A stretch of 13,885 nucleotides of DNA from Candidatus Omnitrophota bacterium (GTDB lineage: Bacteria > Omnitrophota > Gorgyraeia > Zapsychrales > Zapsychraceae): positions 1 to 13,885 of the forward strand of contig JACRHQ010000015.1 of the NCBI GenBank assembly GCA_016217585.1, read 5' to 3'. A program made the translations under genes and the position numbers. Positions 366 through 13,885 of the stretch are shown here, in pieces. How positions within the stretch are numbered: the first letter of the stretch is position 1; each line of letters begins with the position of its first letter. The notes beneath the pieces are model-generated. The model was not told the origin of the DNA and made no database searches. It worked only from the letters and a program-made list of their open reading frames with translations.

Positions 366-710
366 ATGGACAAAAACATGGAAGAAAAAATATTTGAGAT
401 GCATGCCGAGGTTTGCAAGAGCATGGCCAACCCCACCCGTCTGAAGATCATGAGCCTGCTGCGCGAGGGAGAGAAATCCGTCGAGGAATTGAAAAGGCAG
501 CTGGGGCTGCCGAAGGCAAACCTTTCGCAGCACCTGGGCATATTGCGCCAGCGCGGGATCCTGTCCTCCCGCAGGGCGGGCCTCAATATTTATTACAGAG
601 TTACCAACACCAAGATGATCCGGGCCTGTGACATCTTGAGGGAGGTGCTCTTTGAGCTGATGCGGGAGAATGAGAAATTGGCCAAAGGCATCCGCAGGGG
701 GACTAAATGA
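366..710 (+). CDS. ArsR-family winged-helix transcriptional repressor
   Basis: A 114-residue protein of normal ArsR/SmtB length. The winged-helix core runs from about residue 12 to 95: 'KSMANPTRLKIMSLL' (helices 1-2), 'SVEELKRQLGLPKANLSQHL' (helix 3 and recognition helix), then the wing 'SSRRAGLNIYYRV'. The classic metal site ELCVCDL on helix 3 is absent (here EELKRQLGL), so it is not an ArsR/SmtB metal sensor of the usual kind. The only cysteines are C17 (helix 1) and C88 (C-terminal helix), which could face each other in the dimer interface. ATG at 366 follows a purine-rich GGGGGCAGGG; a second ATG at 378 is possible but lacks such a site. The stop overlaps the next start in ATGA. Likely autoregulator of the exporter operon; the ligand is unknown. 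Confidence 0.9.
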   Translation: MDKNMEEKIFEMHAEVCKSMANPTRLKIMSLLREGEKSVEELKRQLGLPKANLSQHLGILRQRGILSSRRAGLNIYYRVTNTKMIRACDILREVLFELMRENEKLAKGIRRGTK

Positions 711-3010
711 TTAAAAGAATTTTTGGTTTTTCCGTAGAACATACCAGGCTGGTTATCCTTCTGACGCTGATCGTCACGTGTCTTTTTTTGTGGCAGTTCC
801 CCAAAATAAAAGTAGACACCGACCCCAAGCACATGCTCCCCACCACCTCCCCGGTGCGGGTCTATAACGACGAGGTCGACCGCCTGTTTTCCCTTCACGC
901 GGATACGATCGTCCTGGGGATCTCGAATAAAGAAGGCATAATCAATACAGATACGCTCAAGAAGGTCGCCCTCATTACCCAATCTATCCTGAAGATCAAA
1001 GGGGTCATTACGCAGGATCTCTTGAGCCTGTCCACGGTCAATGACGTTATTGTTAAAGAAGACGGCCTGCAGGTGAGGCCGTTGCTGGACCAAATCCCTG
1101 AAACAAAAGATGAACTGGAAACCATGAGGAAGGTTCTCTATGAGAACCCTATGCTGGTGGACAGATTTATTTCCAAAGACGGCAAGACCACGGCTGTTTA
1201 TATTCCCATTGAACCCGCGGCTAACGGCAAAGCGGTAGCTGATCTTGTCAGAAAGATTGTCAAAGAGGCCGGCCCGCCGGAGGAATATTATCTGGCGGGG
1301 GATCCCATCGCCAGGGATACGTTCGGCTCCCAGATGTTCAAGCAGATGGGCCTTTTTTCTCCCGTCTCCGGGATGGTGATGTGCGTTGCCCTGTTTCTTA
1401 TGTTCCGGAATTACGCCCTTGTCTTCACCAATATGGGTGTAGCCATGATAAGCATATTCTGGAGCCTGGGCCTGTTGATCGGCATGGGGTTCCCTGTCCA
1501 CATCATGAGTTCGATGATGCCTGTATTTTTGATGGCGATCAGCACCGATACCGTGCATATTTTTAATGAGTTCTATTTCCGCTTCAGAGAAGTTAAAGAC
1601 AAACGGAGGGCGGTCCTGGAGACGATGAACACGGTCGCGCAACCCGTGTTTTATTCGGACCTGACGACCGCTGTCGGCTTCGCCTCTTTGGCCACCGGGG
1701 CCATTGTTCCCGTCAAGGTGTTCGGCTTGTTTGTCGCCTTCGGCACCTTCGTCATCCTCCTGATGAGCTACACCTTTGTGCCGGCGATATTGATGGTCAT
1801 GAAAGAAAGCACCATCCAGAAGGCGCTCGGGCGGGAGGACATTAAGGAAGGCAAGGCCCAGGGCATGACCTGGCTGGTTAAACTCGGGGGCCTGAGCTTA
1901 TCCAGGAGGTCGGTGATCTTGAAGACCGGCCTTATCCTCATCATATTCTCGGTCATCGGGATCAGCCGGATCCACGTCAATAACAATATGGTCTCCTGGT
2001 TCAAGGCCGAAAGCGAAATCAGGCGTTCGGACAAAATTCTGAATAAAGAACTGGGAGGCACATCGCTCGCTTATTTTGTCCTGGATTCCGACAAGGAAGA
2101 TTTTATCAAGGAGCCGTCCACGCTCCGCTATATGGAAACCCTCCAGCGCCGGCTGGAACAGAACCCTCTCGTCGGCAAAACAACATCCGTGGCCGATTAT
2201 GTAAAGCACATCAACCGCGTGCTCCATCAAAATGACCCGAAGTTTGAAGTGATCCCAGGCTCCAAAGATGAAGTCGCCCAGTATTTATTCCTCATGGAAA
2301 TGTCGGCCAGGCCCAACGACCTCAACAACGTCGTCGATTATCCGTTCAAAAGGGCGAACATCTGGGTCCAGCTGAAATCCTGGGACGCCGGTGTGATGCG
2401 CGAGCTTGTCCAGGCCGTACAAAAATACACCCTGGACCGCCCGCTGCCCGAGGCCAAATTCAAACCCGCGGGGATCGCCTACTTTAACATGGTCTGGAAC
2501 GACGAAGTGCTCTGGGGCATGGTGTCGAGCTTTCTTGCCTCGCTGGTGCTGGTGCTGGGCCTCCTGATCTTTGAGTACCGTTCTTTGAAGTGGGGCATCA
2601 TCAGCTTTATCCCGCTGTTGGCCACCATCGTCATAATCTACGGAATGGTGGGGTGGATCGGCAAGGACTTTGACATGCCCATATCGGTCTTGTCCACGCT
2701 TTCCTTGGGCATGGCGATTGATTTCGCCATCCACTTCGTCAGCAGACTTAAACAGCGGTATCAAGAAATCCCCGACGTGGAGGACGCGCTGGCCTGGACC
2801 GTGGGGCGCCCAGGCAAGGGGATCATAAGAAATGCCGTCTTGTTTGCCCTGGGGTTCGCGGTGATGATGTTCGCGAGCCTCACGCCATATATTACGGTCG
2901 GCATATTTATGGCCCTGATTATGATATTAAGTTCCGTAGCGACATTGATATATTTGCCGGCTTTAATTATCCATTTTAAAGAATCGTTATCTTTCAAGGG
3001 AGGGCGATAA
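707..3010 (+). CDS. RND-superfamily exporter, HAE3/MMPL type
   Basis: A 767-residue inner-membrane protein with the two-fold repeat of MMPL-domain RND exporters. TM1 is around residues 14-31, followed by a periplasmic domain starting VDTDPKHMLP (36-45), a five-helix block at about 215-365, a second TM1 equivalent near 403-422, a second periplasmic domain, and a final five-helix block ending near 757. The two TM4 equivalents carry matching charged pairs, D281/H284 (STDTVHIF) and D672/H676 (AIDFAIHF), as expected for proton-relay helices of this family. At under 800 residues it matches HAE3/hopanoid-exporter-like members rather than AcrB. It starts within the ArsR stop (ATGA), preceded by AGGGGG, so it is translationally coupled. 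Followed by a LolA-like protein and an outer-membrane barrel, it probably lifts a lipid or hydrophobic molecule from the inner membrane. The substrate cannot be read from sequence. Confidence 0.9.
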   Translation: MIKRIFGFSVEHTRLVILLTLIVTCLFLWQFPKIKVDTDPKHMLPTTSPVRVYNDEVDRLFSLHADTIVLGISNKEGIINTDTLKKVALITQSILKIKGVITQDLLSLSTVNDVIVKEDGLQVRPLLDQIPETKDELETMRKVLYENPMLVDRFISKDGKTTAVYIPIEPAANGKAVADLVRKIVKEAGPPEEYYLAGDPIARDTFGSQMFKQMGLFSPVSGMVMCVALFLMFRNYALVFTNMGVAMISIFWSLGLLIGMGFPVHIMSSMMPVFLMAISTDTVHIFNEFYFRFREVKDKRRAVLETMNTVAQPVFYSDLTTAVGFASLATGAIVPVKVFGLFVAFGTFVILLMSYTFVPAILMVMKESTIQKALGREDIKEGKAQGMTWLVKLGGLSLSRRSVILKTGLILIIFSVIGISRIHVNNNMVSWFKAESEIRRSDKILNKELGGTSLAYFVLDSDKEDFIKEPSTLRYMETLQRRLEQNPLVGKTTSVADYVKHINRVLHQNDPKFEVIPGSKDEVAQYLFLMEMSARPNDLNNVVDYPFKRANIWVQLKSWDAGVMRELVQAVQKYTLDRPLPEAKFKPAGIAYFNMVWNDEVLWGMVSSFLASLVLVLGLLIFEYRSLKWGIISFIPLLATIVIIYGMVGWIGKDFDMPISVLSTLSLGMAIDFAIHFVSRLKQRYQEIPDVEDALAWTVGRPGKGIIRNAVLFALGFAVMMFASLTPYITVGIFMALIMILSSVATLIYLPALIIHFKESLSFKGGR

Positions 3011-3012
3011 AG

Positions 3013-3816
3013 ATGAGGTATAGGAAAGCATTGATTATGACATTGGCGTTAGGGACAATTTGGACAAGGGCGTCTTTTTCCGGCGATGCGTTGGCCCCGG
3101 GAGAGATCGTCCGCGCCTGTTACGCCCGTTTTTATTACGCGGGCGATGATATGAAGGCCAGGATACTGATGAAGTTGATCGATAAAGGCGGGCAGGAAAG
3201 GATAAGAGACCTTACCATGCTCAGGAAAAATTCCGCCGAAGGAGGGGAACAGAAATATTTTATCTATTTCCACCAGCCTGCGGATGTCAAAGACACCACC
3301 TTTATGGTCTATAAATATCCGGATAAAGACGATGACCGCTGGCTGTTTATTCCCGCCATCGACCTGGTCAAGAGGATAGCGGCCAACGACAAATTTTCAA
3401 GTTTTGTCGGGAGCGACTTTACGTATGAAGATATCTCCGGGAGGAAGCCGGAAGAAGATACGCACACGCTCCTTAGGGAAGAGGACGTGGACGGGCGGAG
3501 CTGTTTTGTTGTTGAAAGCGTCCCCCAAGAGAGATCGGCCTATACAAAGAGAGTTTCATGGATTGATAAAGAGAACTTTCTGCCTTTAAAGGAAGAATTT
3601 TATGATAAACAGAACGAACTTTACCGCCGGTTTGAGGCGCTGGAGGTCAAAGAGGACAACGGTATCCCGACGGCAACCAAAAGAGTGATGCAAAATGTCA
3701 AAACCGGCCATCGGACCGAAGTCACCTTCCAGGAAGTTGAATATAATGCAGGGATAGGCGATGATATTTTCTCCGAGCGGTATCTCAGGAGGCCGCCGCT
3801 TCAATGGATAGAATAA
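3013..3816 (+). CDS. LolA-like outer-membrane lipoprotein-sorting family protein
   Basis: A 267-residue protein with an N-terminal signal peptide (RKALIMTLALGTIW core, cleavage probably between residues 20 and 30). The mature part has features typical of the COG2834/LolA_like proteins found beside MMPL exporters: 'MKARILMKLIDKGGQERIRD' near 50-70, 'DRWLFIPAIDLVKRI' near 110-125, 'FVGSDFTYEDIS' near 133-145, and 'RRFEALEVKEDNGIPTA' in the C-terminal sheet. The family forms a half-barrel that holds acyl chains in the periplasm. The likely role is a periplasmic shuttle between the RND pump and the outer-membrane barrel. The start lies 2 bases after the pump stop, with GGGAGGG as ribosome site about 8 bases before ATG. 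The end overlaps the next gene by 13 bases. Confidence 0.88.
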   Translation: MRYRKALIMTLALGTIWTRASFSGDALAPGEIVRACYARFYYAGDDMKARILMKLIDKGGQERIRDLTMLRKNSAEGGEQKYFIYFHQPADVKDTTFMVYKYPDKDDDRWLFIPAIDLVKRIAANDKFSSFVGSDFTYEDISGRKPEEDTHTLLREEDVDGRSCFVVESVPQERSAYTKRVSWIDKENFLPLKEEFYDKQNELYRRFEALEVKEDNGIPTATKRVMQNVKTGHRTEVTFQEVEYNAGIGDDIFSERYLRRPPLQWIE

Positions 3817-5087
3817 AAACGGTCTGTGTCGTCTTTATTTCCGGGGCCCTCTTTTTCCCGGTGGGGAAAGTTTGGGCGGCGGCCCCCCGGTTCCACGGTT
3901 TCGCGGAGATGGTGTATGGGCCCAAAGTCAGTGATGATAATACCCAAAGGGACAATTTTAATCTGCTGGAACAGCGCCTGCAGCTTAAAACGAAATATTT
4001 GTTTGAAGGCGAGGGGGCGCTGGCGCGCAAGAATTCGTCCATCAACTTCAAAGGCGATTTTACGGTCGATGAATATTTCTCCGGTAAAACGGATTTTGAG
4101 CTGCGGGAGTTTAATTTCTCGACCACGCCGCACGATAGTCTGGATGTTAAACTTGGCCGGCAGGTCTTGACGTGGGGAACCGGAGACTATCTGTTCATTA
4201 ATGATCTTTTCCCAAAAGATTACATCTCATTTTTTACAGGACGGGACGATGAATATCTGAAAAAGCCGTCGGACGCGCTGAAGGTATCCTTTTATCCTTC
4301 CTGGGCGAACATTGATCTTGTTGCCTCGAGGTTCGAGGCCAACACGATTGCTGACGGCGGCCGGCTGTCCTTCTTTGACAGTTTTCAGGGAGGGATCGCC
4401 GGGACGAATTCGGACCGCGACCTTTTGGAGCCGCCGTTGCGGCCGTCGAACATCGAATACGCGTTGAGGGGTTACCGGAGCCTGGGGAGCCATGAAGCGG
4501 CCTTTTATTATTTTCGCGGGTTTGACAAAAATCCCGGCGGGTTCAAGGACGAGGCGGCCCGGCAGCTTTTTTACCCGCGCCTGGATGTTTACGGAGGGAG
4601 CCTGCGCGGGCCCGCGGCCGGCGGCATCGGGAATATCGAACTCGGATATTATCATTCCCGGGAAGATCCAGACGGCAAGGACCGCCTCATCGGGAATTCC
4701 AGGTTCAAAATTTTAACCGGCTATGAGAAGGATCTGGGGAACGATTTTAAGGTCGGGTTCCAGTATCTCTATGAACAAACATTGGATTACGGCAACTACA
4801 GCGCCAGCCTTTTGCCGACGGATTTCGTTTTTGATAAATTCAGGCACTTGTTGGCCCAGCGGATAACAAAGCTTTACAAGAACCAGACGGTCAGCGTGTC
4901 GTTGTTTAACTTTTATTCCCCGTCGGATAGGGACGGATACCTCCGTCCGACTGTCAGTTATGACGCGACGGACCAGTGGAAGCTGGCCCTGGGCGCCAAC
5001 CTGCCGTGGGGGGAGGATGATTTCACGGAATTCGGGCAGATGAAGAGGAATAAAAATGTGTTCTTTCGGGCAAGGTATAGTTTTTAA
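3804..5087 (+). CDS. outer-membrane beta-barrel protein, DUF1302-like
   Basis: A 427-residue protein with a clear signal peptide (TVCVVFISGALFFPVGKVWA, cleavage near AAA|PRF). The mature chain alternates polar and aromatic residues as in a porin-type barrel and ends in FFRARYSF, a C-terminal phenylalanine typical of the Bam recognition signal. The block 'LGRQVLTWGTGDYLFIND' followed by 'LFPKDYISFFTGRDDEYLKK' (about residues 114-150) is what I associate with the DUF1302-type barrels that sit with MMPL exporters and LolA-like proteins. It overlaps the preceding gene by 13 bases, with AGGAGG at 3787-3792 inside it as ribosome site. Inferred role: outer-membrane acceptor or exit channel for the cargo of this operon. 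An uptake porin is the alternative, less likely given the neighbours. Confidence 0.82.
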   Translation: MDRIKTVCVVFISGALFFPVGKVWAAAPRFHGFAEMVYGPKVSDDNTQRDNFNLLEQRLQLKTKYLFEGEGALARKNSSINFKGDFTVDEYFSGKTDFELREFNFSTTPHDSLDVKLGRQVLTWGTGDYLFINDLFPKDYISFFTGRDDEYLKKPSDALKVSFYPSWANIDLVASRFEANTIADGGRLSFFDSFQGGIAGTNSDRDLLEPPLRPSNIEYALRGYRSLGSHEAAFYYFRGFDKNPGGFKDEAARQLFYPRLDVYGGSLRGPAAGGIGNIELGYYHSREDPDGKDRLIGNSRFKILTGYEKDLGNDFKVGFQYLYEQTLDYGNYSASLLPTDFVFDKFRHLLAQRITKLYKNQTVSVSLFNFYSPSDRDGYLRPTVSYDATDQWKLALGANLPWGEDDFTEFGQMKRNKNVFFRARYSF

Positions 5088-7288: not shown

Positions 7289-7317
7289 TCGACAAACCAC
7301 AGGTTTTGTTTTATACT
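7289..7317 (+). promoter_or_regulatory. promoter of the MarR-TolC / RND operon
   Basis: A -35 box TCGACA (7289-7294) and a -10 box TATACT (7312-7317) are separated by 17 bases, each one mismatch from consensus. The predicted start is near 7324, about 40 bases before the GTG start at 7364. Confidence 0.7.
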
Positions 7318-7324
7318 CTCCGGT

Positions 7325-7346
7325 GTTAATAGTTAAGATAGCTAAC
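7325..7346. promoter_or_regulatory. candidate MarR operator
   Basis: Immediately downstream of the -10 box lies an AT-rich motif bounded by GTTA (7325-7328) and TAAC (7343-7346). It contains two near-identical units ATAGTTAA (7329-7336) and ATAGCTAA (7338-7345), offset by 9 bases. It covers the predicted transcription start, where MarR proteins commonly repress their own genes. The symmetry is imperfect, so binding by the MarR domain encoded next is inferred. Confidence 0.5.
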
Positions 7347-7363
7347 CAATTGGAGCAAGGCCC

Positions 7364-9055
7364 GTGGACATTCAGCAATTCGCCCGGCGCATGATGGAAG
7401 TCCTGCCGCAGTGCCGGCGGGGATTTTTTCGCTACGAGCACGGATATATTTCGTGCGGCAAGATCAGCCTGCCGCAATTCGACGCCCTGGAATACCTTTT
7501 CCATCGCAAGCATTGCCTGATGACCGAACTGGCCAGGGCCTTCCACATCTCCAAACCCGCCGCGACGGGGTTGATCGACCGGCTGATCGCCCAGAAAATG
7601 GTGGAACGTATCCTGAGCGACAAAGACCGCCGGGTTGTGATGGTGCGCCTGACCGCCAAAGGCCGGGGGGTCGTCCGCGGCGTTTCCGAGCACCGCCGCC
7701 GCAGCTTCATGAAAGTTTTCGCGCGTATTTCCCCCGACGACCGGCGTCAGCACGTCAAGATCCTCGAGCAGGTGGTCAAAATCCTCAACGAAAAGACATT
7801 GGTGATGGTGGTTCTCATCGGCGCCGGCATGATGTTTTCTTTGTCGGCCAGGGCGCAAGAGCTGTCGGCCGCCGCGCCCCGGGAGTTCACGCTGAAGGAG
7901 TGTTATGAGCTGGCGCTCAAGCGCAGTGAAACGCTGGCGGCCGCCCGACAGGCCGTCGAGGAAGCGCGGGGCCGGTTCCTGCAGTCTTTAAGCGGTGTCC
8001 TGCCCGACGTTTCTTTCAATTATTCGAAAACATATAACCAGGGCCTGGCCGACGAACGGGAAGGCAAGTTCACCTTCAGCCAGCCGCTTTTCTCGGGGTT
8101 TAAGGAGTTCGCGGCCATCGCGGCGGCGAAGGCCCAGGGCCGCCAGGTGCGCCAGGAAGAACTCCGCGCGCGCCAGCTTTTGTTCGCCGATGTCTCCGAC
8201 GCTTTTTATTATTATGGTTTTCATCAGGAGCACCTGAAATTGACTCAAGCGATAGTCCAGGCGCTTGACGAGCGTGTTGAGGAGTTGAAAAAACGCGTGG
8301 AGCTGGGCCGTTCGCGGGCGAGCGAGCCGGCCAGCGCCATGGCGCGTCTTCGCCGGGCGCAGGCGCAGGCCGAGCAAACGCGCGGCGACCTGGGCGTCGG
8401 CCGCGCGCTTCTGGAATTTTTGACGGGTATCACGGTGGAGGCTGTCCAGGACGACGACACATTCCCGTTGTTGGCGCAAGCCGGGGCGGACCTGACGGCG
8501 TACGCCGGGCGGCGGCCGGACGTACTGGCGGCCGGGGAGGCGGTTACGGTTGCCAGGAAAAAGGTGACGGTCGCCCGGGCCGGCTACTGGCCCAGCGCCC
8601 ATGTCGAGGGGAACGCGTACACCGAGAAAGCTTCCGCGAGTACCGCCCCGACCCCGGGCATGGACGTGAGCCTGAAGGTCAGCGTGCCGATCTTCGACGG
8701 CGCGGAAACTCCGGGGAAAGTCAGGGAAGCCGCGGCATTGGCCCAAGAGGCCGAACTCGAATATAGCAGAATATCCCGTGAGGCCCTGAAGGAAATCCGT
8801 CAGGCGTACGCGCGCTGGGAGTCCTCCTCCAAACGGGTGGAGGCGCTCCAGAAGGCCGTGGATGCCGCCGAGGAAAATTACAAACTTCAGCTGGCGGATT
8901 TTCAGGTCAGCATGGTCAATAACCTCGACGTGTTGCAGGCGCTGGCGGACCTGGAAGATGTCCGCCGGGATTACATCAGCGCCTTGACGGACATGAAACG
9001 GTTTTACTGGGATTTCAAGGTAAAGACGGGGGACCTGGACGATGTCCATCTCTGA
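7364..9055 (+). CDS. MarR regulator fused in one frame to a TolC-like outer-membrane efflux protein
   Basis: One open frame of 563 residues holds two complete modules. Residues 1-144 are a full MarR protein: LPQFDALEYLF, LMTELARAFHISKPAATGLI (52-71, recognition helix), DRLIAQKMVER and the wing SDKDRRVVMVRLT (85-97). Residues 145-164 (TLVMVVLIGAGMMFSLSARA) look like a signal peptide with an A-R-A cleavage site before Q165. Residues 175-555 are a TolC/OEP channel with its two repeats (FTLKECYELALKRSE; second repeat from about L377) and long coiled-coil helices. GTG 7364 is preceded by GGAG at good spacing. An internal ATG at 7805 (M148), or GTG 7802 or TTG 7799, could start a separate channel protein, but no ribosome site is obvious and the signal peptide would lack its basic N-region. 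Alternatives are a lost stop codon with signal-peptide release, or a sequencing frameshift near 7795. The gene overlaps the RND gene by 14 bases. Confidence 0.85.
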   Translation: MDIQQFARRMMEVLPQCRRGFFRYEHGYISCGKISLPQFDALEYLFHRKHCLMTELARAFHISKPAATGLIDRLIAQKMVERILSDKDRRVVMVRLTAKGRGVVRGVSEHRRRSFMKVFARISPDDRRQHVKILEQVVKILNEKTLVMVVLIGAGMMFSLSARAQELSAAAPREFTLKECYELALKRSETLAAARQAVEEARGRFLQSLSGVLPDVSFNYSKTYNQGLADEREGKFTFSQPLFSGFKEFAAIAAAKAQGRQVRQEELRARQLLFADVSDAFYYYGFHQEHLKLTQAIVQALDERVEELKKRVELGRSRASEPASAMARLRRAQAQAEQTRGDLGVGRALLEFLTGITVEAVQDDDTFPLLAQAGADLTAYAGRRPDVLAAGEAVTVARKKVTVARAGYWPSAHVEGNAYTEKASASTAPTPGMDVSLKVSVPIFDGAETPGKVREAAALAQEAELEYSRISREALKEIRQAYARWESSSKRVEALQKAVDAAEENYKLQLADFQVSMVNNLDVLQALADLEDVRRDYISALTDMKRFYWDFKVKTGDLDDVHL

Positions 9056-12000
9056 TATCTCCATCCGCCGGCCCGTCATGGGCTGGATGATGATGCTGGG
9101 GCTGATGATCTTCGGCTGGATCAGTTTCCGGTCCATGGGGATCAGCCAGCTGCCCAACGTCGAGTTTCCGGTCATCTCGGTCAGCGTTTCGTGGGAGGGG
9201 ACCGCGCCGGAGGTCATGGAGTCCGACGTGGTGGACGTGATCGAACAGTCGATCATGACCGTCCAGGGCGTCAAGGACATTTCGTCTTCCGTCCGCCAGG
9301 GCCAGGCCACGATCACGGTGGAGCTGGAACTGGGCCGGGACGTGGACGTGGCGGTGCAGGAGGTCCAGACCAAGATCGCGCAGGCGCAGCGGCTCTTGCC
9401 CAACGACATCGACCCGCCGATCGTGATCAAGCAGAACCCGGCGGAACAGCCCATCATCTGGCTGGTCCTGCGCGGGGAGCGCTCGCCGCGCGAACTGATG
9501 GAATACGTGCAGGACCATCTCCAGGACCAGTTTGCCACGGTCAGCGGCGTGGGGGAAGTATCCCTGGGAGGGTTTGTTGACCCGAACCTGAGGGTCTGGG
9601 TGGACCGGGAGAAGCTGTTGCAATACCAGCTGACCGTCCAGGACGTGATCGACGCGATCGAAAAGGAGCACGCCGAATTGCCCGCCGGGCGCATCGAGAC
9701 GCCGCAGACCGAGCAGAACGTCCGGGCCATGGGCGAGGCGGCCAGCGTCGAAGACTTCGGCAATATCCGCATCCCGCAGCGCGCCGGGCGGCCCGTTTAC
9801 ACGCCGATTTATTTGAAAGACGTCGCCGTGGTCGAAGACGGCCTGGCGGACGTCCGCCGCATTTCCCGCAGCGATTTCAAGACCGCCATCGGCCTGGGGA
9901 TCCGCAAGCAGACCGGCAGCAATGAAGTGGAGGTCGCCAGGGCTGTCTTCAAGAAACTGGAGAAGGTGCGCGCGCGCCTCCCGCAGGGGATGCAGCTTGA
10001 CGCCGTGGTCAACCGCAGCAAATTTATCGAAGACTCCATCCATGAACTGAACATCACATTGATTTTATCGGCCGTCGTCACGTCGCTGGTCTGCTGGCTT
10101 TTTTTAGGGTCCTGGAGCGCGACGCTGAACATCTTGCTGGCCATCCCCGTCTCGATCCTCGGCGCGTTTATGGTCATCAGGTTCGCCGGGTTCACGCTCA
10201 ATACCTTCACGATCCTGGGGCTGTCGCTCGCCATCGGCATGGTTGTCGACGACGCGATCATGGTGCTGGAGAACATCACCCGTTACCGGGAAATGGGGCA
10301 TTCCGCCGTCGAGGGCGCGAGCCGGGGCGCGCGGCAGATCAGTTTCGCGGCGACGGCCTCCACGGCGGCCATCATCGCCATTTTTCTCCCCATCGTGTTC
10401 ATGCAGGGGATCATGGGAAAATTTTTCTACGAATTCGGCGTGACGATCTCCGCGGCGGTGGCGATCTCATTGTTCGAGGCGCTGGTCTTTACGCCGATGC
10501 GCTGCGCCCAGTTTTTGAGGGTGGGGGAACACCAGTCCCGGTTCGGCCGTCAGGTGGACGGGCTGTTCCGCCGGCTGGCCTCCGGCTACAAAAAGTATCT
10601 TGAGACGGCCTTGCGCCGGCGCCGGCTGGTCGTCGCCGGCGCGATAGCGCTCTTCGTCGCCTCTCTGGGGGTCGCCGGGCTTTTGCGCAAAGAGTTCGTG
10701 CCGCCGCAGGACCAGAGCATGATTTTTTGCACCCTGCGCACGGCCCCGGGGTCGTCGATAAAATTTACCAGCGAGCGTTTCAAGGAGGCGGAGAAAATCG
10801 TCGCCGCGCGTCCGGAGGTAAAAAGCTATTTCGCGGCCATCGGCGGGTTCCAGGGCGGGGAGTCGAACCGCGGGATCATTTTTGTCAACCTGAAATATCC
10901 GCACGACCGGCCGGTTGTCCCGCCGAACAGAAAGGCGTTGTCGCAAAAAGAGCTGATGAATATCTTCCGTGAGGAATTGAACAAAATTCCGGGGATCAAA
11001 GCGGCCATGCAGGACTTGTCGTTAAGCGGGTTCTCCGCCCAGCGCGGGTTCCCCATCGAGCTGACCGTGCGCGGCCCCGACTGGGACCGGCTGGTCGCCC
11101 TCACGAACAAAATGCAGGACCAGATGCGCCAGGGCGGTCTGATGGTCGACGTGAATACGGATTATCTGACGGGGTCCAAGGAGGTCCGGGTCATCCCCGA
11201 CCGCGTTAAAGCCGCCGGGCGGGGGGTGAGCGTGGAGACGATCGGCAAGGCCATCGACGCGCTGATCGGCGGCCGACGCGTGGGCAAATACACGCATAAC
11301 GGCCGGCGTTACGACATCCGCGTGCGGTTGAAACCGGAGCAGCGTCTCAACCCGGAGGACATTACCAGCATTTATGTGTGGAATAACCAGGGGGAAATGG
11401 TCCAGCTCAAGGACGTTGTTGCGGTCGAGCAAAAGGACGCCTCTTTGAACATCACCCGCCGCGGCCGCGAGCGGGCGATCACCATCGACGCCAACGTGGC
11501 GCCGGGCAAGTCGCAGTCCGACGCCATCGCCGCGGCGCAGCGCGTCGCCAAAGACGTCTTGCCCGAGGGGTATGACGCCGTCCTGGGTGGCAGTTCGCAG
11601 GCCTTCCAGGAATCGAACCGGAGTTTTATATTCGTGTTCGTCATGGGCATCGTCGTGGCGTATATGGTCCTGGCGTCCCAGTTCAACAGCTACCTCCATC
11701 CTTTGACGATCCTGATGGCGCTGCCGTTCAGCATCTCCGGCGCCCTGGCCGCGCTGTGGCTGACGGGGCAGTCCCTGAACATTTACAGCATCATCGGGGT
11801 CGTCCTCCTGATGGGGATCGTCAAGAAGAATTCGATCTTGCTCGTCGAGTTTACCAACCAGCTGCGCGCGCAGGGCAAAGGCGTGTCCGAGGCCGTCCTG
11901 GAAGCCTGTCCCATCCGTCTGCGTCCGATCCTGATGACGTCTTTAGCCACGATCGTGGCGGCCGTCCCGCCGGCGCTGGCGCTGGGCCCCGGCGCCGAGG

Positions 12001-12116
12001 TGCGCATCCCGATGTCGATCGCCGTCATCGGCGGGGTCCTTGTCTCGACGCTGTTGACCTTGTTCGTCGTTCCCTGCGTTTATATGTTCTTCACGCGCTT
12101 TGAGCGGCGCAAATAA
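9042..12116 (+). CDS. RND multidrug-type efflux pump, HAE1/AcrB family
   Basis: A 1024-residue inner-membrane proton antiporter of normal AcrB-family length. It opens with ISIRRPVMGWMMMLGLMIFG (TM1), has two large periplasmic loops (roughly 30-335 and 560-870) and two blocks of TM helices. The proton-relay residues are present: D403-D404 in GMVVDDAIMVLENI (TM4), K929 in GIVKKNSILLVEF (TM10) and R961 in LRPILMTSLATI (TM11). The start ATG sits inside the end of the MarR-TolC gene, preceded by GGGGGA at 9028-9033. The neighbouring TolC domain would supply the outer-membrane channel, and the MarR domain local control. HAE1 pumps normally need a periplasmic adaptor (AcrA type), and none is encoded in this window. 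The substrate range is not readable. Confidence 0.94.
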   Translation: MSISDISIRRPVMGWMMMLGLMIFGWISFRSMGISQLPNVEFPVISVSVSWEGTAPEVMESDVVDVIEQSIMTVQGVKDISSSVRQGQATITVELELGRDVDVAVQEVQTKIAQAQRLLPNDIDPPIVIKQNPAEQPIIWLVLRGERSPRELMEYVQDHLQDQFATVSGVGEVSLGGFVDPNLRVWVDREKLLQYQLTVQDVIDAIEKEHAELPAGRIETPQTEQNVRAMGEAASVEDFGNIRIPQRAGRPVYTPIYLKDVAVVEDGLADVRRISRSDFKTAIGLGIRKQTGSNEVEVARAVFKKLEKVRARLPQGMQLDAVVNRSKFIEDSIHELNITLILSAVVTSLVCWLFLGSWSATLNILLAIPVSILGAFMVIRFAGFTLNTFTILGLSLAIGMVVDDAIMVLENITRYREMGHSAVEGASRGARQISFAATASTAAIIAIFLPIVFMQGIMGKFFYEFGVTISAAVAISLFEALVFTPMRCAQFLRVGEHQSRFGRQVDGLFRRLASGYKKYLETALRRRRLVVAGAIALFVASLGVAGLLRKEFVPPQDQSMIFCTLRTAPGSSIKFTSERFKEAEKIVAARPEVKSYFAAIGGFQGGESNRGIIFVNLKYPHDRPVVPPNRKALSQKELMNIFREELNKIPGIKAAMQDLSLSGFSAQRGFPIELTVRGPDWDRLVALTNKMQDQMRQGGLMVDVNTDYLTGSKEVRVIPDRVKAAGRGVSVETIGKAIDALIGGRRVGKYTHNGRRYDIRVRLKPEQRLNPEDITSIYVWNNQGEMVQLKDVVAVEQKDASLNITRRGRERAITIDANVAPGKSQSDAIAAAQRVAKDVLPEGYDAVLGGSSQAFQESNRSFIFVFVMGIVVAYMVLASQFNSYLHPLTILMALPFSISGALAALWLTGQSLNIYSIIGVVLLMGIVKKNSILLVEFTNQLRAQGKGVSEAVLEACPIRLRPILMTSLATIVAAVPPALALGPGAEVRIPMSIAVIGGVLVSTLLTLFVVPCVYMFFTRFERRK

Positions 12117-12448: not shown

Positions 12449-13885
12449 ATGATCACCTGTTTAGAGAAAACACACGCCTCGTTATCCCATAAAGTTTTCT
12501 GCGGCTTTATCACACTGACGTTTCTGACCAGCGTTATCCTGCCGCCGGGGATTGCCTCGGCGCAGGCAGGGACTACAATATTAAACCTTCCCGTCCCCGG
12601 CGCGATGGTGCCGCCCAGCGCCGGTTTTATGCCGGCCTTGATGACCGGCGTCACCATCCATCCCGACAATCCTCTGCGTTTTGACTTTATCATGGACCGC
12701 GGCCAAAGCGGTCTGGCCGGCGGGCCGTTGAAAGAAGAATACACAAAGATGATCAAGTATTTCATGGCCTCGTTGACGGTGCCCGAGGACGAGCTGTGGG
12801 TCAACCTTTCCCCGTATGAACAAGACCGGATGGTCCCGCGAGGCCTCGGCGATACCGGGATGGGCCGGGACATGCTGGCGCAGGATTATCTGTTGAAGCA
12901 GCTCACCGCTTCCCTGATGTATCCGGAGAAAGAGCTGGGCAAGGAATTCTGGAACAAAGTTTATCAGAAAGCCAAAGAAAAATTCGGCACCACCGGGATC
13001 CCCGTCAATACCTTTAACAAGGTCTGGATCGTGCCCGACGAAGCCCTGGTTTACGAACAGGGGTCGAGCGCGTTTGTGATTAAGAGCCGGTTGGGAGTTA
13101 TGTTAGAAGAAGATTATGAAGCGATGAGTCACCAGGACACAAAGTCACCAAGTCACCAAGATCCCGCGGGTGACGTTGTGACAGCGACCGAAGGGAGTCC
13201 CCGGCAGGGGAGTGACGTTGTGACCACAGGAATTATTCGCGAGATCATCATCCCCGCCATCGAACAAGAGGTCAACGAAGGCAAGAATTTCGCCAGCCTG
13301 CGCCAGATCTACAACGCCCTGATCCTGGCCACGTGGTACAAACAAAAATTAAAGGTAGGGACAGGTCGCGACCTGTCCCTACTTGGCCAGGTGTATGTCG
13401 ACCAGAACAAGACCAAAGGGATCGACACGCCGGACAAGGAAGTCAACCGGAAGATCTACGACCAATATATCGAGTCCTTCAAGAAGGGCGTGTACAACTT
13501 TATCAAGGAAGACGTTGACCCGGCAACGCAAGAGATCATCCCGCGCAAATACTTCTCCGGCGGTGCGCGGCTGACGTATCATCCTAAGAAGGGGTCTTTG
13601 ATATTGAAGACAGTCGGGCCGTTATTGGTCGGCGCGCTGCTGGCCTTCGGTTCACTCGCCCCGGCGGATGCCCGGAATCTGGTCGCCGCGGCGACACAAG
13701 GGAACAAAGACGGCGTCACTACCGAATTTGTCGATAATGCCAGGCCGGGCGATGTCGGGACCGCAATTACGCTCAAAGAAGGCATCGTCGAGCCGCTATT
13801 GCTCGCGCAGGCGGCTTCCTTGTTGGTGGAAGACCAGGGTCAAGGGTTCCCATGGCTGGGACTCCCTTCGGTCGCAAGGGTCAAG
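12449..13885 (+). CDS. large secreted Omnitrophota-type protein, N-terminal part (3' end outside window)
   Basis: The frame is open from ATG 12449 to the window edge, 479 codons without a stop; a TAA at 12434 in frame rules out a longer start. The ribosome site is weak (CAGGG, 12439-12443). Residues 16-38 form a signal peptide (KVFCGFITLTFLTSVILPPG, then IASA|QA). The stretch LNLPVPGAMVPP, TIHPDNPLRFDFIMDRG, VNLSPYEQDRMVP and MGRDMLAQDYLLKQLTASLM matches, from memory, the N-terminus of very long exported proteins of Candidatus Omnitrophota; no function is known to me. Later parts include FNKVWIVPDEALVYE, REIIIPAIEQEVNEGKNF and FKKGVYNFIKEDVDPATQEI. A second hydrophobic segment with an ADA end lies at 384-409. 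Residues 227-261, 303-312 and 466-476 are encoded by palindromic or repeated DNA that appears to have inserted in frame. Confidence 0.85.
   Translation, partial: MITCLEKTHASLSHKVFCGFITLTFLTSVILPPGIASAQAGTTILNLPVPGAMVPPSAGFMPALMTGVTIHPDNPLRFDFIMDRGQSGLAGGPLKEEYTKMIKYFMASLTVPEDELWVNLSPYEQDRMVPRGLGDTGMGRDMLAQDYLLKQLTASLMYPEKELGKEFWNKVYQKAKEKFGTTGIPVNTFNKVWIVPDEALVYEQGSSAFVIKSRLGVMLEEDYEAMSHQDTKSPSHQDPAGDVVTATEGSPRQGSDVVTTGIIREIIIPAIEQEVNEGKNFASLRQIYNALILATWYKQKLKVGTGRDLSLLGQVYVDQNKTKGIDTPDKEVNRKIYDQYIESFKKGVYNFIKEDVDPATQEIIPRKYFSGGARLTYHPKKGSLILKTVGPLLVGALLAFGSLAPADARNLVAAATQGNKDGVTTEFVDNARPGDVGTAITLKEGIVEPLLLAQAASLLVEDQGQGFPWLGLPSVARVK
13127..13160. repeat. 8-base tandem repeats inside the secreted-protein gene
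   Basis: AGTCACCA occurs at 13127-13134, 13143-13150 and 13151-13158, with a variant unit GGACACAA between the first and second. The period is 8 bases, not a multiple of 3, so successive copies are read in different frames (giving SHQDTKSPSHQD). That is unusual for protein-selected repeats. Confidence 0.75.
13170..13224. repeat. direct repeat GTGACGTTGTGAC, two copies
   Basis: Exact 13-base copies lie at 13170-13182 and 13212-13224, 42 bases apart, so both are read in the same frame (GDVVT and SDVVT). They bracket the 28-base hairpin element at 13184-13211, as if that element were flanked by duplicated sequence. An 8-base perfect palindrome CCCGCGGG (13163-13170) abuts the first copy. Confidence 0.75.
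13184..13211 (+). repeat. 28-base palindromic repeat element, copy 1
   Basis: The element consists of the 18-mer GCGACCGAAGGGAGTCCC (13184-13201) merging into a hairpin TCCCC-GGCA-GGGGA (13198-13211). A second copy in reverse orientation lies at 13848-13875 and matches at 25 of 28 positions. It is read as ATEGSPRQG within the secreted protein. Confidence 0.8.
13355..13382. repeat. 28-base perfect palindrome inside the coding sequence
   Basis: The arm GTAGGGACAGGTCG (13355-13368) is followed directly by its exact reverse complement (13369-13382). It is read as VGTGRDLSLL (303-312) between WYKQKLK and GQVYVDQNK. It looks like a REP-type dispersed palindrome that landed in the gene and kept the frame. 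It differs in sequence from the element at 13184-13211. Confidence 0.85.
13848..13875 (-). repeat. 28-base palindromic repeat element, copy 2 (reverse orientation)
   Basis: GGGACTCCCTTCGGTCGC (13858-13875) is the exact reverse complement of the 18-mer in copy 1. The adjoining hairpin TCCCA-TGGC-TGGGA (13848-13861) occupies the same place as that of copy 1. The 9-base direct repeat AGGGTCAAG lies just outside on each side (13836-13844 and 13877-13885). In this orientation it is read as GLPSVA near the end of the visible protein. Confidence 0.75.

Follow-up and report, generated by a model that had tools for sequence, protein, structure and literature searches.

The window, meaning the whole 13,885-nt stretch of Candidatus Omnitrophota DNA analysed here, contains a gene that joins a MarR-type repressor to a TolC-type channel, next to a gene for an RND permease (Table 1). 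A repressor and an outer-membrane channel are normally encoded by separate genes, as they are destined for opposite sides of the inner membrane. The first-pass annotation described one frame (ORF 7364-9055) in which a MarR domain leads into a signal-peptide-like segment with the end ARA↓Q (the arrow marks the predicted cut) and then into a two-repeat TolC/OEP domain, and this architecture holds. Elsewhere in the window, MMPL, LolA-like and weakly DUF1302-like genes (707-5087) lie downstream of an ArsR-type regulator gene (366), and a long ORF with a signal-peptide-like start (12449-13885) runs off the window.

Table 1. Features of the marR-tolC locus (window coordinates).
Feature	Position	Strand	Details
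sigma70-type promoter	7289..7317	+	-35 TCGACA 7289-7294, 17-nt spacer, -10 TATACT 7312-7317
MarR-type operator (predicted)	7330..7348	.	TAGTTAAGATAGCTAACCA; 2 mismatches to TAGTTAA-N5-TTAACTA; 12 nt after the -10 box
marR-tolC fusion gene	7364..9055	+	GTG start, 563 aa, one terminal stop
MarR winged-helix domain	7364..7783	+	residues 1-140; helix 64-76, wing strands 80-84 and 92-96
Hydrophobic core and predicted internal signal peptide	7796..7855	+	residues 145-164, TLVMVVLIGAGMMFSLSARA↓Q
TolC/OEP outer-membrane channel domain	7886..9052	+	about residues 175-563
AcrB-type RND permease	9042..12116	+	Pfam ACR_tran E 1.9e-283; first 14 nt shared with the 3' end of the fusion gene

Both halves of the protein are recognized by Pfam. 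The N-terminal part matches MarR_2 (PF12802) at residues 34-90 (E 1.2e-11, 45.1 bits, cut-off 27) and MarR (PF01047) at residues 34-92 (38.4 bits, cut-off 24.6). In a 30-row alignment, the wing residues R82, R89 and R90 are invariant and D88 is nearly so; the arginines belong to the DxRR-type motif of the MarR family. The C-terminal part matches OEP (PF02321) in two stretches, above the curated cut-off (E 4.8e-52, 176.9 bits). It reaches 161.8 bits against a cut-off of 225.15 for the NCBIfam TolC subfamily TIGR01844, and the channel is therefore assignable to the OEP superfamily only. An AlphaFold2 model built on a 61-row alignment (mean pLDDT 83.2, pTM 0.63) shows a winged helix, then an unbroken helix at residues 124-161, then TolC-like helices and strands. 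The unbroken helix carries the last MarR helix on into the hydrophobic core and ends just before ARA↓Q, and residues 164-168, at the predicted cut, form a low-confidence stretch.

The junction between the two domains looks like a signal peptide placed inside the chain (in the window, ..VKILNEKTLVMVVLIGAGMMFSLSARA↓QELS..). A cleavage-type site, defined as small-x-Ala with a D, E or Q no more than three residues further on, occurs in 33/33 fused rows versus 11.5 expected from shuffled segments; these rows include close relatives and are not independent. A looser rule finds sites in 33/33 fused rows and in 25/32 N-terminal signals, and because it comes with no base rate the stricter rule with shuffles was used. 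The core itself is as hydrophobic as a free signal: the median hydropathy of its best 14-mer is 2.30 across the 33 fused rows, against 2.34 for 32 TolC rows that carry the signal at their N-terminus, and 32 of the 33 fused rows reach at least 1.6. The 12 residues that precede the core carry little positive charge, with a net value of 0 in the window and a median of +1 in the fused rows; free TolC signals have +1.5. Junction dN/dS lies at 0.15-0.31 in the three pairs, of four, for which dS could be computed, which, with dS nearly saturated, argues that the segment is coding in the frame of the fusion. The 11-codon linker after the cut gives no sign of constraint in the window/L031 pair (dN 0.87 over dS 0.58). 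The enzyme that would make the cut, signal peptidase I (PF10502), is present in eight of nine genomes searched; it was not found in the 61%-complete genome of the window itself. Of the three explanations offered by the first-pass annotation, a signal peptide that works behind an N-terminal extension and is then cut is the one best supported by sequence evidence. As a separate observation, 13 of the 33 fused rows have a cysteine immediately ahead of the hydrophobic core or where it begins, absent in the window and its nearest relatives; a one-base deletion considered as its origin was dropped, as the frame arithmetic fails.

The fusion extends well beyond this genome. MarR and OEP Pfam domains occur together in 29 of 120 listed protein matches, window included (120 of 276 found), of which P0010, P0033 and P0040 are incomplete, and a second search with an alignment added no further fused protein among the best 120 of 230. 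The join is also seen in metagenomic proteins with 36-68% identity. In a whole-genome collection, seven of 81 genomes of the order carry the fusion (G000, G110, G253, G347, G392, G121 and G337). Sixty loci compared as DNA comprise eight that are fused, 32 with a separate marR just upstream of tolC (split loci, below) and 20 with no MarR detected near TolC; among the 20, eight bear the titles of other phyla and some are truncated where the contig stops. One locus, L091 (G392), shares its match start with L033 and is counted as the same place. The in-frame join is thus seen at the DNA level in nine genomes, the window and eight of the 60 loci, and the titles of the other eight read Candidatus Omnitrophota in seven cases and just "bacterium" for L032. 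Close relatives that always had two separate genes were the first-pass annotation's sign of a spurious join; the relatives include both fused and split forms, and by these counts the fusion is conserved and recurrent, more than chance would give. Several other long frames around TolC were rejected as fusions. In G097 (L108, G097:C100:2446-7020, a 1525-aa frame), an apparent TolC-RND fusion is bridged by undetermined XXXX residues and MarR lies in another frame, as it does in the long open frames of G146, G190, G009 and G030.

A second explanation in the first-pass annotation was an internal start that makes the channel separately. In its strongest form, initiation at the junction (GTG7772, TTG7799, GTG7802 or ATG7805) mainly makes TolC, through translational coupling retained from a split ancestor, and the long form is minor. 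The window does contain in-frame candidates, with anti-SD dG of -1.8 for GTG7772, +0.1 for TTG7799, -0.9 for GTG7802, -0.9 for ATG7805 and -4.7 for GTG7808, and the product of GTG7772 (MVKILNEKTLVMVV..) would resemble a signal peptide. Coupling would also have a precedent in the split loci, as tolC ATG overlaps the marR stop, as ATGA or TGATG, in eight of 11 printed split junctions; the remaining three show a 1-nt gap (L056), a 24-nt gap (L036) and a GTGA overlap (L051). Some fused relatives offer better candidates, such as a TTG before the core of L032 with a strong ribosome-site score of -9.6, TTGs near -5 in L035 and L042 and a GTG at -4.0 in L031. These scores are blunt measures, since the assumed MarR starts of L031 (-1.0) and L035 (+2.0) are also weak; the GTG start of the window's fusion gene scores -5.6.

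Against internal initiation stands the loss of the channel's own start codon. Within a scan range from 16 codons before to one codon after the start of the hydrophobic core, an ATG is found in 0/9 fused versus 26/32 split loci (Fisher p 1.4e-5, for rows that are not phylogenetically independent). In 19 of the 32 split loci an ATG has a dG of -5 or lower, and the median of the best split ATG is -5.9, whereas the window's candidates before the core reach -1.8 at best; ATG7805 lies inside the core, outside the scan range. The leftover GTG and TTG codons vary between fused loci. L033 has no ATG, GTG or TTG anywhere in its printed junction, and L038 has none in the start range, its TTGs lying only inside or after the core. 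Candidate codons are therefore present in the window as the annotation proposed, but the weak ribosome sites and the two relatives without candidates make separate production of the channel from an internal start unlikely. Young fusions may differ, because P0032 and P0056 apparently keep the old tolC Met, a plausible start; such proteins may still be made as two products.

Upstream of the fusion gene, a predicted operator follows the sigma70-type promoter, and similar -35/-10 pairs lie at the same place in related loci. The predicted operator scores 18.5 bits with a matrix made from the other 21 sites, the top of the whole window, and the next site reaches 11.5 bits. That second-best site (TAGCGAAACTAATAAACTA, 328-346) lies just before the ArsR-type regulator gene. 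The operator pattern occurs with 0-3 mismatches before the gene in 8/9 fused loci and in 14/16 split loci examined, the latter a chosen subset of those in hand, and where a site is present it lies 12 nt from the -10 box in seven of eight fused and 14/14 split loci. Leave-one-out matrices rank it first among all sites of the locus in 8/9 fused loci, barely so in L049, where it is weak (7.2 versus 6.1 bits); no operator was found in L038 with such a matrix. A search that allowed one mismatch located a mismatch-free copy directly ahead of the fusion gene in six of eight fused genomes, and one further site elsewhere, in G392. Sites with at most one mismatch number one in five of the eight fused genomes, two in G392 and none in G000 and G113. 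A backwards-read control gives 0-4 sites per strand, above the real count in G347 and G392; a regulon beyond the gene's own promoter is accordingly not claimed, and because these controls are high the case for autorepression rests on the position of the operator and its mismatch-free copies, not on counts. Since the operator is kept in nearly all fused loci, the fused MarR probably still represses its own promoter.

The RND permease gene presumably belongs to the same operon. A similar ORF, judged by its first residues and length, follows the fusion in the other eight fused loci, that of L032 being cut by a contig end. No HlyD-type adaptor gene was recognized beside the fused tolC-RND pair, in ORF lists read by eye and in Pfam searches of seven downstream neighbours. 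HlyD_D23 matches occur on other contigs in seven of nine genomes, with none in G071 or G000.

The MarR part could also be a passive leader: a mutation would have joined the two frames, and the extra domain would be tolerated while regulating nothing in the fused protein. Some relatives lend this idea substance by doing without the domain. MarR is missing from the TolC protein of the near relatives P0018, P0021, P0023 and P0047. P0021 and P0023 begin MDILRKTVCC.., which puts the junction segment at the very N-terminus, in the position of an ordinary signal peptide, and P0018 begins MDVQEFVKRM, followed by a signal-like segment. With their MarR-like initial residues, P0018, P0021 and P0023 are apparent MarR-lacking descendants of the fusion, known as proteins from contigs of 1.9-2.9 kb. 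Another relative has exchanged its partner. UppP/BacA is an undecaprenyl-diphosphate phosphatase, and a 650-aa frame at L005:727-2679 (the same as L109:2995-4947, in G071) fuses a near full-length UppP in frame to a TolC that is 62% identical to that of the window. The UppP part scores 250.9 bits over residues 2-256 with NF001390, just below the cut-off of 260, and its last helix runs into AHA↓SE; the printed junction holds no ATG or GTG, only TTG. In the OEP tree L005 groups with the MarR-fused P0009 and P0011 and the MarR-lacking P0021 and P0023, on an end branch of 0.037, and P0086 has the same UppP and TolC domain pair. Because a separate uppP gene (PF02673, 234.4 bits) is the next gene upstream of the marR-tolC fusion in L035, a deletion that removed marR could explain the swap. 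A passive leader is nevertheless improbable where MarR is retained. The MarR domain is under purifying constraint, with a dN of 0.10-0.16 across four pairs; dS is 0.9 and 1.9 for two of them and could not be computed for the others. The operator, too, has been kept in front of nearly all fused genes.

Trees place the fusion deep in the window's lineage. In a MarR tree of 62 rows made with a careful method, the window lies in an all-fused clade of 24 rows (UFBoot 99, SH-aLRT 93). Fused P0034 stands beside split L065 and fused P0035 beside split L051, and the fused P0039, P0056, L038 and L049/P0085 are placed elsewhere, L038 and P0056 on long branches. At least four changes of the fused label are forced on this tree and six are needed, and a more mixed OEP tree of 110 rows made with a quick method forces at least 12; such changes may be gains or losses, and the number of independent fusions is uncertain. 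The two trees therefore suggest that the window's lineage carries an old fusion, that several more arose separately and that some were lost. The ancestor was likely a side-by-side pair of split marR and tolC genes, the end of one at the start of the other, which small frame-joining changes would have united more than once. In L051 (2448-2546), the split tolC signal region is broken by an in-frame stop just after the marR stop. A recent loss of a stop codon, the third explanation in the first-pass annotation, is refuted by the 24-row clade, and an origin in the window genome alone or as an assembly or sequencing artefact, which its 999-kb, 61%-complete assembly in 198 contigs might have suggested, has next to no probability given the same fusion in eight other genomes, from several assembly sources and on contigs of up to 820 kb.

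Taken together, the locus probably encodes a single polyprotein, in which a MarR autorepressor, an internal cleavable signal peptide and a TolC-type channel head an RND operon. Four features can be read directly from the aligned genes: the single conserved frame, the lost tolC ATG, the conserved core with its cleavage-type site and the conserved operator. From these we infer the course of export, cleavage and DNA binding. The MarR part would fold in the cytoplasm and, as a dimer, occupy TAGTTAA-N5-TTAACTA where its own promoter starts. The last MarR helix would continue into the hydrophobic core, and the core would direct the downstream chain into Sec while the N-terminus stays on the cytoplasmic side. 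Signal peptidase I would then cut at ARA↓QE. TolC could move on to the outer membrane, and for each channel one MarR would remain behind on a membrane stub. Left uncut, the protein could scarcely function, because the architecture of TolC calls for the outer membrane whereas the stub would sit in the inner membrane.

After the cut, the MarR stub might be processed further. PMC8144685 describes E. coli RseP as removing remnant signal peptides, with prior cutting by leader peptidase needed. Release of MarR coupled to export is plausible, because the MarR stub would be a remnant of this kind. A eukaryotic parallel appears in PMC7618786, where a signal peptidase cut of iRhom2 sends an N-terminal fragment to the nucleus and changes the transcriptome. 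A full feedback loop is a more speculative proposal, which we hold tentatively and regard as rather unlikely: only after signal peptidase I has left a MarR stub would the stub become a substrate of a site-2 protease, which would free MarR to repress the operon. Peptidase_M50 (PF02163), the site-2 protease family, scores over its cut-off in all nine genomes searched, the matches being short pieces only in G347 and G337 and partial in G000. If the loop exists, the cell would keep a tally of its exported channels, since each would yield one repressor, and the operon would stay on for as long as export is blocked.

The arrangement has wider implications. A fusion kept for so long, together with loss of the channel's ATG, suggests that a signal peptide can function even when an entire folded DNA-binding domain precedes it. 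The fusion could serve as a natural design that yields regulator and regulated product in a one-to-one ratio, with release of the repressor as a possible readout of protein export. With split, fused, MarR-lacking and UppP-TolC versions in one phylum, the origin of a polyprotein is unusually visible. In this variant of the MarR/efflux operon, repressor and channel would form a polyprotein with an internal signal peptide; searches of open-licence PMC papers listed no report of a MarR-TolC fusion and none of a transcription factor attached to a remnant signal peptide.

Several known systems share parts of this design. MarR-family autorepressors head drug-efflux operons, and the fusion resembles them in its winged helix, its palindromic site over the promoter and its adjoining pump gene, yet here the repressor shares one reading frame with the outer-membrane channel of its operon. 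Its TolC part matches E. coli TolC (1ek9), OprM (1wp1) and CusC (3pik) in sequence. Like such TolC/OEP factors, it has two OEP repeats and an RND pump next door; unlike them, it carries its signal-peptide-like segment behind about 144 residues and has no recognized adjoining adaptor gene. The Bradyrhizobium fbcH product, cytochrome b/c1, is a polyprotein cut by signal peptidase at an internal signal sequence. The fusion is likewise one gene with two predicted products parted at such a sequence, but both halves of fbcH are respiratory-complex subunits, whereas the upstream half here is a DNA-binding repressor. ToxR and CadC are membrane-bound regulators in which a DNA-binding domain is followed by a transmembrane helix and the periplasmic sensor stays attached. 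The fusion shares the order of DNA-binding domain and membrane-type helix, and differs in that its distal part is a channel with a cleavage-type site before it. As PMC7618786 presents iRhom2, a signal peptidase cut yields an N-terminal fragment that alters the transcriptome, as we suppose the cut fusion might; iRhom2 is eukaryotic and unrelated, and a bacterium would need a further intramembrane cut to free MarR. The substrates of RseP and other site-2 proteases, as PMC8144685 portrays them, may offer a parallel to that last step, since the MarR stub would be in the same leader-peptidase-cut state.
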